Positions 44,916-58,279 of a stretch of 64,000 nt of DNA are shown here, in pieces. A program made the translations under genes and the position numbers. Positions within the stretch are counted from its first letter, which is position 1. Each line of letters begins with the position of its first letter. This DNA is from Halanaeroarchaeum sulfurireducens (GTDB lineage Archaea; Halobacteriota; Halobacteria; Halobacteriales; Halobacteriaceae). The notes beneath the pieces are model-generated. The model worked only from the letters and a program-made list of their open reading frames with translations. It was not told where the DNA came from and did not search any database. The stretch is from the NCBI RefSeq assembly GCF_001011115.1, contig NZ_CP008874.1:1936440-2000439 (forward strand). Direction: 5' to 3'.

Positions 44916-46226
44916 TCAGCCCCGGTTGGTCCACTGCAGGAGCAACAGCGTGCCCTCGAAGAGCGCGACCATCGTCGCGGCCACGATGATCGGCGCCATG
45001 CCGGTCGGATCCGGGCTGAAGAGGAACGACACGCCCAGAAAGACCCCCCAGAAGATGAGACGCCGGTCCTGCATCCACTGCCGGGTCGTCAGCCCCATCA
45101 TGATCGCGAGCATGATGAACAGCGGAATCTGGAAGACGAGCGCGAGATACCCGATCAGGATGAGAATGAGGTTGAACGTCTGTCCCAGCGCGAAGGCGAT
45201 GTCGACGACCTCCTTTGAGTAGTAGAGGAAGTAGTTCATGACCGCCGGGAGGACGATGAAGTAGGCGAACGTCATTCCGACCAGCGCGAGTATCAGACTG
45301 GTCGGCACGGCGGCCAGGTAGTACCGCCGCTCGTGGGGATAGAGCCCGGGGCGCATGAACGCGTAGGTCTGGTAGACGAACGCCGGGAGGGCCACGACCA
45401 GTCCCGCCAGACTCGCCGTCTTGAGCTGTGTGAGGACGAGCTCGAGGGGATGATAGACGTGTGGCTGGGAGACCGATCCGGGCAGCACCGAGTACCACAG
45501 GAAGGTGATGACGCCCTCGGCGAACGGGAACGCCGCGAGGCTCACACCCCCAGCGATGACGAGGACGATGCCCAGACGCTTGATCATCTCCTCGACGTGA
45601 TCAGCGAGCGGCTGTTCTTCGTCGGTTTGCGGGCCCGTTTCCGCCTTGCGTTCGATCGCGGTCGAGTCCGGATCGTCGGCAGCCGCACCCGTTTCGGCCA
45701 TCGCCCCGTCCGTCTCCTCGGCAGTCGCGTCCGACTCGTCGGTCGCCGCCTCCGTTTCCTCGCCTGCCGCGTCTGACTCGTCGGTCGCCGCCTCCGTTTC
45801 CTCGCCTGCCGCGTCTGACTCGTCGGTCGCCGCCTCCGAATCGCCGGACGACTCCCCATCCGACGAACCGGGCATCTTCGCGGTCCATTCGGCCTCCTCG
45901 TCGTCGGACCCCGGTCGTCCGGTATAGTCAGGCTCCGACCCGATTTCCATGCCTGCGTTGACCTCAACGTCGAAGTCGTCGGCCGACATCTCGTCGCCCT
46001 CGTCGCCTGCGCCTTGGGACTGCGCTGACGTATCGTCCTGGGTGGGCGTCTCTTCGGACGTGTCGTCCTGGGTGGGCGTCTCTTCGGACGTATCGTCCTG
46101 GGTGGGCGTCTCTTCGGACGTATCGTCCTGGGTGGGCGTCTCTTCGGACGTATCGTCCTCGTCGTGACGGTCGGTCTCCTCGTCGACCCCCTCTTTCCCG
46201 GATTCGTCCGCCGGGTCCTCTCCCAT
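44916..46226 (-). CDS. tatC: Tat translocase subunit TatC with long acidic N-terminal extension
   Basis: Membrane core of the twin-arginine translocase, 436 residues. Residues 1 to ~200 are a highly acidic, low-complexity region with two tandem repeats: DDTSEETPTQ (four copies) and EAATDESDAAGEET (2.6 copies). The six-helix TatC domain starts near 202 (LADHVEEMIKRLGIVLVI) and includes the conserved FVYQTYAFMRPGLYPHERR and LGQTFNLILILIGYLALVFQ segments. It is divergent from the double TatC gene, a typical haloarchaeal pair. Confidence 0.92.
   Translation of the reverse strand: MGEDPADESGKEGVDEETDRHDEDDTSEETPTQDDTSEETPTQDDTSEETPTQDDTSEETPTQDDTSAQSQGAGDEGDEMSADDFDVEVNAGMEIGSEPDYTGRPGSDDEEAEWTAKMPGSSDGESSGDSEAATDESDAAGEETEAATDESDAAGEETEAATDESDATAEETDGAMAETGAAADDPDSTAIERKAETGPQTDEEQPLADHVEEMIKRLGIVLVIAGGVSLAAFPFAEGVITFLWYSVLPGSVSQPHVYHPLELVLTQLKTASLAGLVVALPAFVYQTYAFMRPGLYPHERRYYLAAVPTSLILALVGMTFAYFIVLPAVMNYFLYYSKEVVDIAFALGQTFNLILILIGYLALVFQIPLFIMLAIMMGLTTRQWMQDRRLIFWGVFLGVSFLFSPDPTGMAPIIVAATMVALFEGTLLLLQWTNRG
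45727..45837. repeat. 42-bp tandem repeat inside tatC
   Basis: Two complete 42-bp units (45727 and 45769) and a 27-bp partial unit (45811-45837) are nearly identical and keep the reading frame, encoding EAATDESDAAGEET repeats. High identity suggests recent expansion. Confidence 0.85.
46028..46159. repeat. 30-bp tandem repeat inside tatC
   Basis: Four complete 30-bp units starting at 46028, 46058, 46088 and 46118, then a 12-bp partial unit. They differ by a single base (A/G at 46062) and encode DDTSEETPTQ repeats in frame. Confidence 0.9.
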
Positions 46227-53362: not shown

Positions 53363-53989
53363 CTACGTGGAGGAGGCTTCGTCGGCTTTCACGAGGCCGG
53401 CGACCAGGACGTCGATCAGGAGATCCCGTGCTTGTCCGTACTCCGTCTCGGTGTCGAGGGTCTTGAACTCCTCGCGCAGTCGGACGACCTGGGTCAACAT
53501 TCGGATGAGTCCGACGACCGTCTCCGGATCGTCGGCCCGGAACCGGGGCCGTCCCGTCCATCGCTCGGCGAGCGCAACGAGGGTCTCGTTCGTCTCCCGA
53601 TAGCGCTCTTGCTGTCGCTCGGCCGGGAGACGGCGCAACAGGACCTGACGCTCGTTCTCGACGATGGAGCGATAGAACAGCTGGTTGTTCTCGAGTTCCT
53701 CGAAGAGCGACGCCAGGCCGAGACGCACCTCCGCCTCGAGGGTCGGCGCGTCGGCCAGCTTCCGCTCGTAGTCCTCGACGATGCGCTCGGATTCGTGATG
53801 GAGGACGGCGAGATACAGCGCCCCCTTCGAATCGAAGAACTGATAGAACGTGCTCGTCCCGATGCCGACCGCGTCCGTGAGATCGCTTATTCGCGTCCGT
53901 TCGAGGCCCAGGTCGGTGAACAGTCTTCGCCCCGCCTCGATGAGGTCCGCCCGGATCCGCTCGCGTTCGGCGTCCGAGAAGCCCTTCAT
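53363..53989 (-). CDS. TetR-family transcriptional regulator
   Basis: DNA-binding repressor of 208 residues. The HTH is RTRISDLTDAVGIGTSTFYQFF (about residues 31-52), followed by DSKGALYLAVLHHES. The C-terminal ligand-binding part is all-helical. It is divergent from the COG1361/RND exporter genes and is likely their regulator and its own. Its ATG overlaps the stop of a 17-codon leader frame (ATGA). Confidence 0.9.
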   Translation of the reverse strand: MKGFSDAERERIRADLIEAGRRLFTDLGLERTRISDLTDAVGIGTSTFYQFFDSKGALYLAVLHHESERIVEDYERKLADAPTLEAEVRLGLASLFEELENNQLFYRSIVENERQVLLRRLPAERQQERYRETNETLVALAERWTGRPRFRADDPETVVGLIRMLTQVVRLREEFKTLDTETEYGQARDLLIDVLVAGLVKADEASST

Positions 53990-54039
53990 CGCTCGATCCT
54001 CTCGCCGTCGGGGCCAGGGAGTCGTCCAGGCGTGGCCAT
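53986..54039 (-). CDS. Possible 17-codon leader peptide before tetR
   Basis: ATG at 54039 opens a frame encoding MATPGRLPGPDGERIER, whose TGA overlaps the tetR ATG. The only TATA-like sequence upstream (AAATACAAAA, about 54064-54073) is at the leaderless distance for this ATG but 75 nt from the tetR ATG. This suggests the mRNA starts at the leader frame. Translation is unproven. Confidence 0.3.
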   Translation of the reverse strand: MATPGRLPGPDGERIER

Positions 54040-54094
54040 TGACGGGATTCTACGAACGAAATCATTTTGTATTTTTGGATTCGAATCTCCGACT
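54040..54094. promoter_or_regulatory. Divergent promoter/operator between tetR and the export genes
   Basis: This is a 55-bp region between two divergent ATGs. The central AT-rich 54061-54076 can serve as TATA for both strands. GATTC at 54046-54050 and GAATC at 54083-54087 form an inverted repeat centred on it, and 54078-54087 is a perfect palindrome GATTCGAATC. These are good candidates for the TetR operator. Confidence 0.5.
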
Positions 54095-54238
54095 ATGAAT
54101 CCCGGAGCGAATCGCGGAGAGGGTCCGATGGGGCTGTCGTCGCCGTCGGCCGTCGCGACGGCGAATCGATACGGACGGTCGTGGAACGGGGCCGGTGAGA
54201 ATCGATACGGACGGTCGTGGAACGGGGCCGGTGAGTGA
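54095..54238 (+). CDS. Possible 47-residue leader protein with 12-residue repeats
   Basis: ATG at 54095 lies about 27 nt after the TATA-like tract and opens a 47-codon frame ending NRYGRSWNGAGE twice. Its TGA overlaps the ATG of the COG1361 gene (TGATG), implying coupling. The composition is neutral to basic and unlike haloarchaeal proteins, so it may be a translated leader and not a stable protein. Confidence 0.35.
   Translation: MNPGANRGEGPMGLSSPSAVATANRYGRSWNGAGENRYGRSWNGAGE
54164..54235. repeat. Perfect 36-bp tandem duplication before the COG1361 gene
   Basis: Units 54164-54199 and 54200-54235 are identical and end directly at the start codon of the export gene. The duplication preserves the 47-codon leader frame. 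Confidence 0.9.
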
Positions 54239-55836
54239 TGGCGCGCGTGCACAGGAGTCTCGCGGTGGTCGTCGCAGTAGCGGTCGTCCTCTCCGGCACC
54301 GTGGGCGTCGCGGGCGTGGCGTTCGGCCAGAGCGTCCAGGGCGATCCGGAGCTGGACGTCTACCTCCCACAGGAAACGGTGTTGCCCGGGGAGAAGACGG
54401 AGCTCGAACTGCGTGTCGCAAACGAGGGGGACATGACCTTCGGGACCCCCGATTCCCGTCCTGCCGCCACGACCGCCCACAACGTCCTCGTCGAGGCCGA
54501 GGCCGAGGAACCGTTGGCGGTGGAAACGGGGGAGACACCCATCGGGGCCGTCACCGAGGATAAACCGGGGAGTGCGCCGATCGTGCTCACGATTCCCGAG
54601 GGAACGGAGCCGGGAACCTACGAGATCGACGTCGACCTCGAGTACACGTACGCGAACGTCTACGACCTCGGCAGCAACGCGGTCGACGACAAGACCCGGA
54701 GCGTGACCCGAACCGTCGAGATCACCGTCGACGACGCGCCACGATTCGCGGTCGAGAACGTCACCCCCGACGTCCACATCGGAGAAAGGGGGTCGATGGC
54801 GGTCACCCTCGCGAACACCGGTTCGCAGCCGGCCAGCGACGTCCGAATGACCCTCGAGTCCTCGAGCGGGAAGTTCCTGTTCGGCGAGAGCAAGGCCGGA
54901 ACCACACGGGTTGGGTCGATCGCACCGGGGGAGAATGCCACGCTCACGTACGACGTTGCGGTCCAGTCGTCGGCCAGCGTCCGCGATTTCGACCTCTCTG
55001 GGACGGTCCTGTACACCGATCCCGATGGGATCATGGGCAAGCACGACGGGCTTTCAGCGGGCGTAACGCCGCTCTCCGAGCAAACCTTCACGATCGATAC
55101 CCGGGAGTCAACGCTGCGCGTCGGCGAGGAGGGGGAACTACACGGGACCGTGACCAACACCGGCCCGGTCGCGGCCAATGACGTGGTCGTCCAATTCGCC
55201 GAGGAGGCTCAGACGATCGTCCCCGTCGTGCGTAGCGTGTCGGTCGGCACGCTCGAACCGGGGGCGAGTGCCGACTTCACACTCCCGATCGAGGTCACGA
55301 CCGAGGGGAAGGCCGTCCCCAACACGTTCGACATGCTGGTCACCTATCGGAACGTGGACAACGAGAAACGGGCGTACGAGGACGTGTCCACCAGCGCCGA
55401 GATCGAGCCGCGACGCGATCAGTTCTCCATCGAGGTCGCCGAGCCGACGATCACTGCCGGCGAAACGCGAACCCTCCAGGTCACCATGCAAAACGAACTC
55501 GATGAGACCGTCTCGGATGTCGAACTCAAGATGTTCGTCGACGATCCGCTGGACAGCAGCGAGGATGAAGCCTTCGTCAGCTCGCTGAAGCCGGGGGAAT
55601 CCGCGACAGCCACCGTCACGCTGAGCGCCGGCGGCGACGCCGTCGCGAAGTCGTATCCCGCGTCCTTCGACGTGCGATACGACGATGCCGACGGAACCTC
55701 GCAGCTCTCGGAGACGATGCGGGTTCCGATATCGGTCACCGAGTCGGAGAGTTCGGGCCTCCCGATCACCCCGATCGGGATCGCTATCGCCCTCCTGATC
55801 CTCCTAGCGGGCGGCTACTGGTACTGGAGGGATTAA
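54238..55836 (+). CDS. Secreted COG1361-type S-layer/NEW3-like protein with C-terminal anchor
   Basis: Protein of 532 residues. An N-terminal signal peptide (RSLAVVVAVAVVLSGTVGVAGVAFG) is followed by several Ig-like beta-sandwich repeats with phrases such as LANTGSQPASDV, VTNTGPVAANDV and MQNELDETVSDV. A single C-terminal membrane helix (ITPIGIAIALLILLAGGYWYW) ends the protein. It sits 1 nt before the RND gene and is likely an extracellular adaptor for it. Cargo is unknown. Confidence 0.85.
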   Translation: MARVHRSLAVVVAVAVVLSGTVGVAGVAFGQSVQGDPELDVYLPQETVLPGEKTELELRVANEGDMTFGTPDSRPAATTAHNVLVEAEAEEPLAVETGETPIGAVTEDKPGSAPIVLTIPEGTEPGTYEIDVDLEYTYANVYDLGSNAVDDKTRSVTRTVEITVDDAPRFAVENVTPDVHIGERGSMAVTLANTGSQPASDVRMTLESSSGKFLFGESKAGTTRVGSIAPGENATLTYDVAVQSSASVRDFDLSGTVLYTDPDGIMGKHDGLSAGVTPLSEQTFTIDTRESTLRVGEEGELHGTVTNTGPVAANDVVVQFAEEAQTIVPVVRSVSVGTLEPGASADFTLPIEVTTEGKAVPNTFDMLVTYRNVDNEKRAYEDVSTSAEIEPRRDQFSIEVAEPTITAGETRTLQVTMQNELDETVSDVELKMFVDDPLDSSEDEAFVSSLKPGESATATVTLSAGGDAVAKSYPASFDVRYDDADGTSQLSETMRVPISVTESESSGLPITPIGIAIALLILLAGGYWYWRD

Positions 55837-55837
55837 G

Positions 55838-58279
55838 GTGTCTCCCGGCGGGAGAGTCGAAGCGGCGACAGAGCGCGTCGGAGAGATCATCACCGATCGG
55901 CCACGGACGGTCATCATCGCGTTTCTCCTGCTGACGGCGGTCTTTGCAGGCGGCATGACACAGGTGTCGACGAGTTCGGGATCGACGGACTCGTTCACCG
56001 AAGATCTCCCGGAACAGCAGGCGTTGGACGACATCAACGAGAAGTTCCAGGGACCCTTCGAGACTGATTCAGAGACGACACAGCTGATCCACGAGGGCGA
56101 CGATGTCCTCACACGGCAGGCCCTCCTGGAGATGCTTTCGGTCCTCGAACGCGTCGACCAGCAAGATGACCTGTGGATGTCCTCCGCGAACGGGCCGGCC
56201 CCGGCGATCGCACAAGCGATCGACCCGACGGCGACCACCCCCGCAGAGCAACAACGGGTGATTCGTCACGCGAGCGATCGCGAACTCCGATCCGCCATTC
56301 GCGCCCTCTCCGAGCGGCCCTCCTTCGAACGGACCCTCTCCGACGATTTCAACTCCCGAGAGGCGGCCGCGTCCGCGTCGATCACGGTGATCACCCACGA
56401 TCCCCCCGAGGGCGCGGACGAAATGCAACGCGTCCAGACGACCATCCAGTCGATGGCCGACGATGCCGATGGGAGCATCCACACACTGGGATCGGGGATT
56501 ATCGACGCTGAGTTTTCGAACGTCATCGGGGACTCCATGAGCCTGGTGATGCCGGTCGTGATGGTGCTCCTGCTGACGTTCCTCGTCATCGCCTATCGTG
56601 ACCCGATCGACCTTGTGCTCGGGCTGATCGCCCTCGTCATGACCATCATCTGGACGTTCGGTTTCCTGGGGTTCGCCGGGATACCGTTCGACCAGATGAT
56701 GATCTCCGTCCCGGTGTTGTTGCTGGCCGTGGGGGTCGACTTCGGGATCCACATCATCAATCGCTACCGCGAGGAGACCATCGATGGCACCGAACCGATC
56801 CCATCGATGCGACTCGCTCTGGGACAGCTACTGGTGGCGTTCGTCATCGTCACGGCGACGACGGTCTTTGGGTTCGGCGCCAACGTCGTCTCGGACCTGG
56901 CACCGATCCGGCGGATGGGCATGGCGGCGAGCGTGGGTATCGTCTTTACCTTCCTCATCTTCGGACTGTTCTTGCCGCCGGCGAAAATCGAAAGCGACCG
57001 GTTCCGCGAGCGGTATAACGTCCCGGCGTTCAATTCGACGCCGATCGCGAGCGAGGATTCGGGGCTGGGCCGAATGCTCGCGGTTCCGGCTCGGATCAGT
57101 GATCGTGCCCCCGCAATGATCGTGCTGGCGATCCTCGTCCTCGCTGCCGTAGTCGGCGGGTACGGCGCCGGAGTCGACAACACGTTCGACACCGACGACT
57201 TCCTGCCGCCGGAGGAGCAGCCGGGGTACGTCGACTATCTCCCCGCCAGCATGACCCCGGCCGACTACACGGTGACGGAGACGGTCAACATCATCGAGGA
57301 TCGGTTCGCGACGGCAGAAAGCGAATCTGTGATGATATACGTGGAGGGACCCTTCGAACGGGCGCACGCCCTGACTGCGCTGACGGCGCCGAACGAAGAC
57401 CCGCCGGAGAGTTTCGCCGTAGGCCCGCACGGCGAAGCCAGTGCGCGGAGCATCGTCACGGTGATTCAGTCGTACGCCGATCAGAACCCACAGTTTGGGG
57501 AACTCGTCGAACGGAGCGATCTGAACGGCGACGGGATACCGGACCAAAATCTCGAACGGATCTACGACGAACTGATGGCCTCACCGTACGCCGATAGCGC
57601 GGACGACTACCTCACCGAGGATCGACGTGCCGCGAAGGTTTCCTACACCGTCGACAGCGAGGCGAGCCAGGACGAGATCGCGACCGACGCCTCCCGCCTC
57701 GCCGAGGATTTCCGCTACTCGGCGACCGCGACCGGTGAGACCATCATCTTCGCGGCGGTAAGCGACCTGATCTACGAGTCCGCGATCCAGGGGCTCGTGC
57801 TGGCGATCGGGCTGTCCGCGCTGTTCCTCGTCCTCACGTACACGATCCTCGAACGAAAGCCGATGCTGGGGATCGTGAACGTCTTCCCGATCATCGTCGC
57901 CGTCATCGTGCTTCTCGCGACGATGCGTGCGCTGGGAATGTCTCTGAACGCCCTGACGGCGACCATCCTCTCGATATCGATCGGGGTGGGCATCGCCTAC
58001 TCCGTCCACGTTACCCATCGGTACACCGACGAGATCGGGGGCGGGATGGAGTCCAGAGAGGCTCTGTTGACCACACTGACGGGGACCGGCGGCGCCCTCG
58101 CGGGGAGCATGGCGACGACCTCGCTGGGAACCGGCGCGCTGACGCTCGCAATATCGCCTATTCTGGGCGATTTCGGCTTTCTCATGGCCCTGAGCGTCTT
58201 CTACTCGTTCGTCGCGTCGATGACCGTTCTGCCACCCGCGCTCCAGCTCTGGGCGCGCTGGGAGACCATCGTCGGCTGA
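55838..58279 (+). CDS. RND-superfamily (MMPL/HpnN-like) exporter
   Basis: Membrane permease of 813 residues made of two repeats, each one membrane helix, a large outer domain and five more helices. The helices near the first ectodomain include MPVVMVLLLTFLVIAYRDP and VPVLLLAVGVDFGIHIINRY; the second repeat has ISIGVGIAYSVHVTHRY. The second ectodomain carries DLNGDGIPD (561-569), a calcium-loop pattern. The GTG start has a GGAGG Shine-Dalgarno 6 nt upstream and follows the COG1361 stop by 1 nt. Substrate unknown; lipid or hydrophobic compound export is typical of the superfamily. Confidence 0.88.
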   Translation: MSPGGRVEAATERVGEIITDRPRTVIIAFLLLTAVFAGGMTQVSTSSGSTDSFTEDLPEQQALDDINEKFQGPFETDSETTQLIHEGDDVLTRQALLEMLSVLERVDQQDDLWMSSANGPAPAIAQAIDPTATTPAEQQRVIRHASDRELRSAIRALSERPSFERTLSDDFNSREAAASASITVITHDPPEGADEMQRVQTTIQSMADDADGSIHTLGSGIIDAEFSNVIGDSMSLVMPVVMVLLLTFLVIAYRDPIDLVLGLIALVMTIIWTFGFLGFAGIPFDQMMISVPVLLLAVGVDFGIHIINRYREETIDGTEPIPSMRLALGQLLVAFVIVTATTVFGFGANVVSDLAPIRRMGMAASVGIVFTFLIFGLFLPPAKIESDRFRERYNVPAFNSTPIASEDSGLGRMLAVPARISDRAPAMIVLAILVLAAVVGGYGAGVDNTFDTDDFLPPEEQPGYVDYLPASMTPADYTVTETVNIIEDRFATAESESVMIYVEGPFERAHALTALTAPNEDPPESFAVGPHGEASARSIVTVIQSYADQNPQFGELVERSDLNGDGIPDQNLERIYDELMASPYADSADDYLTEDRRAAKVSYTVDSEASQDEIATDASRLAEDFRYSATATGETIIFAAVSDLIYESAIQGLVLAIGLSALFLVLTYTILERKPMLGIVNVFPIIVAVIVLLATMRALGMSLNALTATILSISIGVGIAYSVHVTHRYTDEIGGGMESREALLTTLTGTGGALAGSMATTSLGTGALTLAISPILGDFGFLMALSVFYSFVASMTVLPPALQLWARWETIVG

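Follow-up and report, generated by a model that had tools for sequence, protein, structure and literature searches.

Most haloarchaeal genes are leaderless. Given this, and since Shine-Dalgarno (SD) motifs are inactive in first initiation at the 5'UTRs of Haloferax volcanii (PMC6728339), the supply of ribosomes to genes that lie away from the 5' end of a transcript is a practical question. The locus analysed here raises it on both strands at once. In a stretch of 64,000 nucleotides (hereafter, the window) from the 2.2-Mb genome of Halanaeroarchaeum sulfurireducens, whose relatives are haloarchaea, a tetR gene and a COG1361 gene diverge from a shared AT-rich region, and each is preceded by a short open frame. 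COG1361 is the first gene of an exporter operon that the TetR repressor probably controls. What are these two frames for? A sequence-only reading of the window had claimed that the 17- and 47-codon frames end exactly on the tetR ATG (as ATGA) and the COG1361 ATG (as TGATG), and had proposed that a TetR/exporter switch is controlled through their translation.

Two coupled leader frames at one divergent promoter

Both overlaps and their coordinates are confirmed from the sequence (Table 1). An alternative start of COG1361 is possible at an in-frame GTG at 54235, which would give GTGA with the same leader stop. On either strand, the leader ATG lies ~20–35 nt away from the shared AT-rich core, and a Pfam search with the 47-aa COG1361 leader peptide gave no match. 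The 36-bp tandem duplication inside that leader is absent from the relatives read and looks recent.

Table 1. Features of the divergent tetR–COG1361 locus, in window coordinates
Feature	Position	Strand	Details
tetR, TetR-family regulator	53363–53989	-	208 aa; Pfam TetR_N, E 7.7e-10
tetR leader frame	53986–54039	-	ATG at 54039; 17 codons + TGA; peptide MATPGRLPGPDGERIER*
ATGA stop-start overlap	53986–53989	-	leader TGA (53988–53986) on tetR ATG (53989); distance -4 nt
Shared AT-rich core promoter region, predicted	54056–54080		basis: sequence and profile averaged over clusters
TATA-like TTTTGTATTTTT	54065–54076		within the shared AT-rich core
COG1361 leader frame	54095–54238	+	ATG at 54095; 47 codons + TGA
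Perfect 36-bp tandem duplication	54163–54235	+	inside COG1361 leader; adds 12 codons; frame-preserving (multiple of three)
TGATG stop-start overlap	54236–54240	+	leader TGA (54236–54238) and COG1361 ATG (54238) with 1 base in common; distance -1 nt
COG1361 protein	54238–55836	+	CARDB/NEW3-type domains, signal sequence, C-terminal membrane segment
MMPL/RND exporter	55838–58279	+	start 1 nt past COG1361 stop (TAAGGTG)

The frames might be a product of chance, in that GC-rich DNA poor in stops, combined with frequent ATGA starts, would yield functionless frames. When the real gene starts were held fixed, the upstream bases shuffled, and core-proximal ATG frames ending on an overlap scored, a coupled leader arose with P = 0.09 on the minus strand and 0.008 on the plus strand (joint ~7e-4). 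The minus-strand value taken singly is compatible with chance, and even the joint value, judged from the window alone, is suggestive only and not conclusive, because NTGA starts are common (40/88 promoter-proximal genes). In this background set, which was drawn from stretches of three annotated haloarchaeal plasmids and therefore combines more than one species and depends on the gene starts as annotated there, a coupled ATG frame precedes 11 of the 88 genes, a rate that also speaks for chance, and 4 of the 44 divergent ones. On the minus strand of the Haloarcula marismortui plasmid L171 (L numbers denote loci throughout), wecB and a gene for a nucleotide sugar dehydrogenase are each preceded by a coupled ATG leader, of 20 and 28 codons respectively, and by AT-rich sequence ~30 nt upstream (L171:14705-15820 and L171:15973-17253); they are possible further cases.

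Conservation of the arrangement across Halobacteria

For comparison, we used the divergent tetR–COG1361 pair in 63 non-redundant loci from Halorubrum, Halobellus, Natrialba, Halopiger, Halostagnicola, Natrarchaeobius, Natronomonas and other genera. In 56 of them, an ATG frame, mostly 14–17 or 20 codons long, terminates at the tetR start through ATGA, GTGA or TAATG. The loci were then grouped at 75% TetR identity into 37 clusters, a leader was sought within 120 nt, and the expectation was taken from dinucleotide shuffles. On the tetR side, 32 of 37 clusters have an ATG leader against 6.9 expected (P ~5e-20, an optimistic figure that treats clusters as independent and ignores phylogeny); on the exporter side, an ATG or GTG leader is found in 20 of 34 clusters against 8.1 expected (P ~4e-7, which likewise ignores phylogeny and is a guide only). 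The exporter-side coupling signal is the weaker of the two, with some error added by the simple signal-sequence rule through which COG1361 starts were picked. Both proportions also exceed the 11/88 background of promoter-proximal genes. That two overlaps, one per strand, are unlikely to have arisen by chance was a sound expectation, and it is the cluster counts that are decisive for it.

A second test was blind to coupling and considered only the first ATG located 18–45 nt from the AT-richest core. On the tetR side, 22 of 26 such ATGs are in the coupled phase, where one third would be expected, and 21 of 26 open frames that end on the overlap, at several distances; the exporter-side counts are 12/20 and 11/20, respectively. 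The signal weakened when GTG was admitted beside ATG. A coupled phase maintained across many leader lengths, together with the excess on the tetR side, makes a chance origin very unlikely.

The tetR leader is missing in L065, L068, L094 and L170. In a Natronomonas-type clade (L065, L066, L067 and L151), the exporter-side predicted leaderless ATG is fused in frame to COG1361, such that a hydrophilic N-terminal extension of the protein replaces the separate leader. Programmed -1 frameshifting, fusing leader and downstream protein, would make sense of the existence of such a clade and of the constant -1 offset of the leader frame from that of the gene. For such a mechanism, a conserved stop placed exactly on the start codon is needless, a tail ahead of the TetR helix-turn-helix domain or of a signal sequence has no visible purpose, and leader lengths would hardly vary as freely as they do; we regard it as extremely unlikely.

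In L020, the 27-codon leader MPAIQTDDLTKYYGDV... upstream of tetR looks, by eye only, like the beginning of an ABC ATPase, as though the first codons of a deleted operon had stayed behind as a leader.

What selection keeps in the leaders

Comparison of close relatives gave pN/pS values of 0.81 for tetR-side leaders and 0.85 for exporter leaders, versus 0.14 for codons 1–60 of the same tetR genes. Within the 13 codons before tetR, the leader frame has 3 stops, whereas the two alternative frames have 15 and 12. These sequence patterns indicate that selection maintains an open frame that terminates at the start codon but places little constraint on the peptide. Near-neutral evolution of the peptide, taken with the frame-preserving duplication in the window, therefore suggests that what counts is the act of translating the leader and not the peptide it yields.

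The leaders could instead encode functional small proteins. Haloarchaea make many of these (PMC4983044), and the leader peptides are arginine-rich. Their composition is nevertheless unlike that of haloarchaeal proteins (D+E 12% versus 21% in tetR), and with lengths ranging from about 10 to 50 codons and pN/pS about 0.8 we give this alternative almost no credence.

Predicted promoters and transcript starts

Averaged over clusters, exporter leaders are preceded by an A-rich BRE-like element at ~-39 to -33 and a TATA-like element at ~-30 to -24 from the leader start, in a profile that carries a mild bias from the choice of exporter leader starts partly by AT content; for tetR leaders, the AT-rich stretches fall at -40 to -31 and -28 to -19. 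The averaged profile has no comparable BRE/TATA-like peak at the same distances from the gene starts. Because promoter-like sequence precedes the leader starts rather than the gene starts, both transcripts are predicted to be leaderless or nearly so, and the spacing fits putative transcript starts at the leader ATGs or within ~10 nt before them. The proposal that the leader ATGs lie at leaderless distance from the shared promoter thus agrees with the placement of the predicted elements. A scan for sigma-70 promoters and terminators, whose bacterial consensus is ill-suited to archaeal promoters, returned nothing. Among the article texts searched, no haloarchaeon combining published transcription-start or ribosome-profiling data with the exact divergent pair was identified.

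TetR paralogues and COG1361 genes in other contexts

In the TetR tree, the regulators of the divergent pairs form one clade (support 100/99) and the paralogues fall into clear groups. None of 16 TetR paralogues with a promoter of their own has a coupled frame, a further point against chance, and most of them have ATGC starts. Paralogues located behind an ABC-2 permease (an identity that was Pfam-checked for three loci) either overlap the permease directly (e.g. L012, L097 and L123) or are connected with it through a bridging mini-ORF of 10–34 codons (L013, L014, L016, L023, L024, L106 and L117), which begins on or beside the permease stop and terminates at the tetR start, resulting in a chain of coupled frames. 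Mapped on the TetR tree, the bridge label needs six changes. Actinobacterial TetRs (L131, L133, L136 and L139) also match the haloarchaeal TetR query, with about 33–40% identity over the best segment, and the three placed in the tree lie near standalone haloarchaeal paralogues.

COG1361 genes that lack a divergent tetR provide the complementary control: 12 of 18 (L036, L045-L053, L057 and L058) have coupled short leaders, versus 2.4 expected. The leaders therefore do not constitute a device specific to the TetR/exporter pair. In two of these loci, L057 and L058, the ATG comes immediately after the leader stop and is in frame with it. A COG1361 gene on a Halobacterium salinarum plasmid, read by eye, is not divergent from a tetR.

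These results bear on the possibility that the leaders are regulatory sensors, in which conditional stalling or termination toggles the repressor or the exporter by attenuation or leader-peptide control. A regulator and an exporter are both plausible targets, and coupling would render both genes responsive to leader translation. Such a sensor is unlikely in view of the almost neutral evolution of the peptides and the presence of the same leaders on COG1361 operons without a divergent tetR. Nor do the leaders have the expected RNA features: folding of both is no better than that of shuffled sequences (z = 0.60 and 0.34), an Rfam search with E up to 1 gave no match, and the scan based on the bacterial consensus revealed no terminator-like site. 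Of the earlier proposal that TetR and the exporter are controlled through leader translation, one part is supported, by the conserved position and coupling of both leaders across Halobacteria, by the spacing of the predicted promoter elements and by strict termination-reinitiation in H. volcanii. The regulated switch is not supported; constitutive ribosome delivery accounts for everything seen.

Probable ribosome delivery by termination-reinitiation

The best explanation, and in our judgment a probable one, is peptide-independent delivery of ribosomes by termination-reinitiation through predicted leaderless mini-ORFs. The two divergent transcripts would each begin at or just before the leader AUG, ribosomes would load at this 5' AUG, translate 17 or 47 codons, terminate at the UGA lying across the real start codon, and begin again from that codon. 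On this view the leader peptide is a by-product, and tetR and the COG1361-MMPL operon would receive their ribosomes through its translation. Since relatives keep the arrangement and not the tiny peptides, delivery of ribosomes to the gene is probably the job of the leader.

The reinitiation step is proposed by analogy with experiments in H. volcanii, in which coupling at overlapping or closely spaced stop and start codons was strict in 9/9 gene pairs (PMC6728339). Reinitiation declines within ~20 nt of stop-start spacing, and in E. coli the final 15 nt of the preceding gene are sufficient for it (PMC10666635). Strict coupling in H. volcanii, the inactivity of SD motifs in first initiation and the fall of reinitiation with spacing together imply that a leaderless mini-ORF that terminates at the start codon would suffice to feed tetR and COG1361. 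An SD match of at least 4 nt is absent at 22 of 37 tetR starts, a point in favour of delivery by the leader; the SD-like motif found at most COG1361 starts counts against it. The idea that repressor output is held low by partial reinitiation is no more than a guess.

More generally, Halobacteria may keep a class of empty leader ORFs whose only role is to bring ribosomes that loaded at a leaderless 5' end to a start codon used in reinitiation. One TetR group would be fed in this manner in nearly all contexts: at divergent loci by a leaderless mini-ORF, elsewhere by an ABC permease or a bridging mini-ORF. We put this generalization forward tentatively, as somewhat short of an even bet; if it is true, the level of TetR would be set by the efficiency of reinitiation.

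Relation to known systems and implications

Leaderless, coupled small-ORF architecture is known from mycobacteria, where the linkage is conserved, the peptide is not, and ribosome delivery has been proposed (Shell et al. 2015, PMC4633059; review PMC12548453). The haloarchaeal leaders are a variant of this kind, with an RTGA overlap with the annotated gene and with position and coupling conserved in preference to the peptide; a start of the small frame at the 5' end of the mRNA is predicted from promoter-like sequence at leaderless spacing. In mycobacteria the leaderless status has been measured (PMC4633059), whereas in the haloarchaeal locus it is predicted. What is new compared to the mycobacterial type is that the leaders are archaeal, occupy both arms of one divergent promoter, are kept over many genera, use TGATG and TAATG overlaps as well, and have bridging counterparts inside TetR paralogue operons. 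In the open-licence literature we found no report of leaderless coupled small-ORF architecture in archaea.

Within the same archaeal group, the overlapping gene pairs of H. volcanii share the ATGA and TGATG junctions, from which tight coupling would be expected here too, but there the upstream partner is a real gene (Huber et al. 2019, PMC6728339; 2023, PMC10666635), unlike the 10–50-codon leaders with their non-conserved products. Short ORFs at the front of haloarchaeal transcripts have likewise been described in H. volcanii, where uORFs of 15–31 codons occur in 16/97 long 5'UTRs (Babski et al. 2016, PMC4983044); these differ from the tetR and COG1361 leaders in their low isoelectric points, and the accessible part of that paper does not report stop-start overlap or conservation. 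Bacterial attenuators also have a short leader ORF ahead of regulated genes; the haloarchaeal leaders, in contrast, lack a conserved peptide, a codon run or an alternative RNA structure, and their stop sits on the gene start.

A conserved, peptide-free leader ORF would answer the question of ribosome supply for this operon and would explain a class of unannotated archaeal small ORFs. Such leaders should not be called genes, nor should gene starts be shifted onto them. The locus offers a ready system in which archaeal reinitiation can be tested, and an independent match to the architecture of leaderless mycobacterial mRNAs.

Elsewhere in the window, the minus strand encodes a TatC-like membrane protein with tandem repeats in its acidic N-terminal region, recognized by eye from the translation. 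The repeats, at 46027-46159 and 45676-45838, consist of DDTSEETPTQ units and then of ATDESDAAGEETE units, and the start region of the gene overlaps a divergent TatC-like gene.
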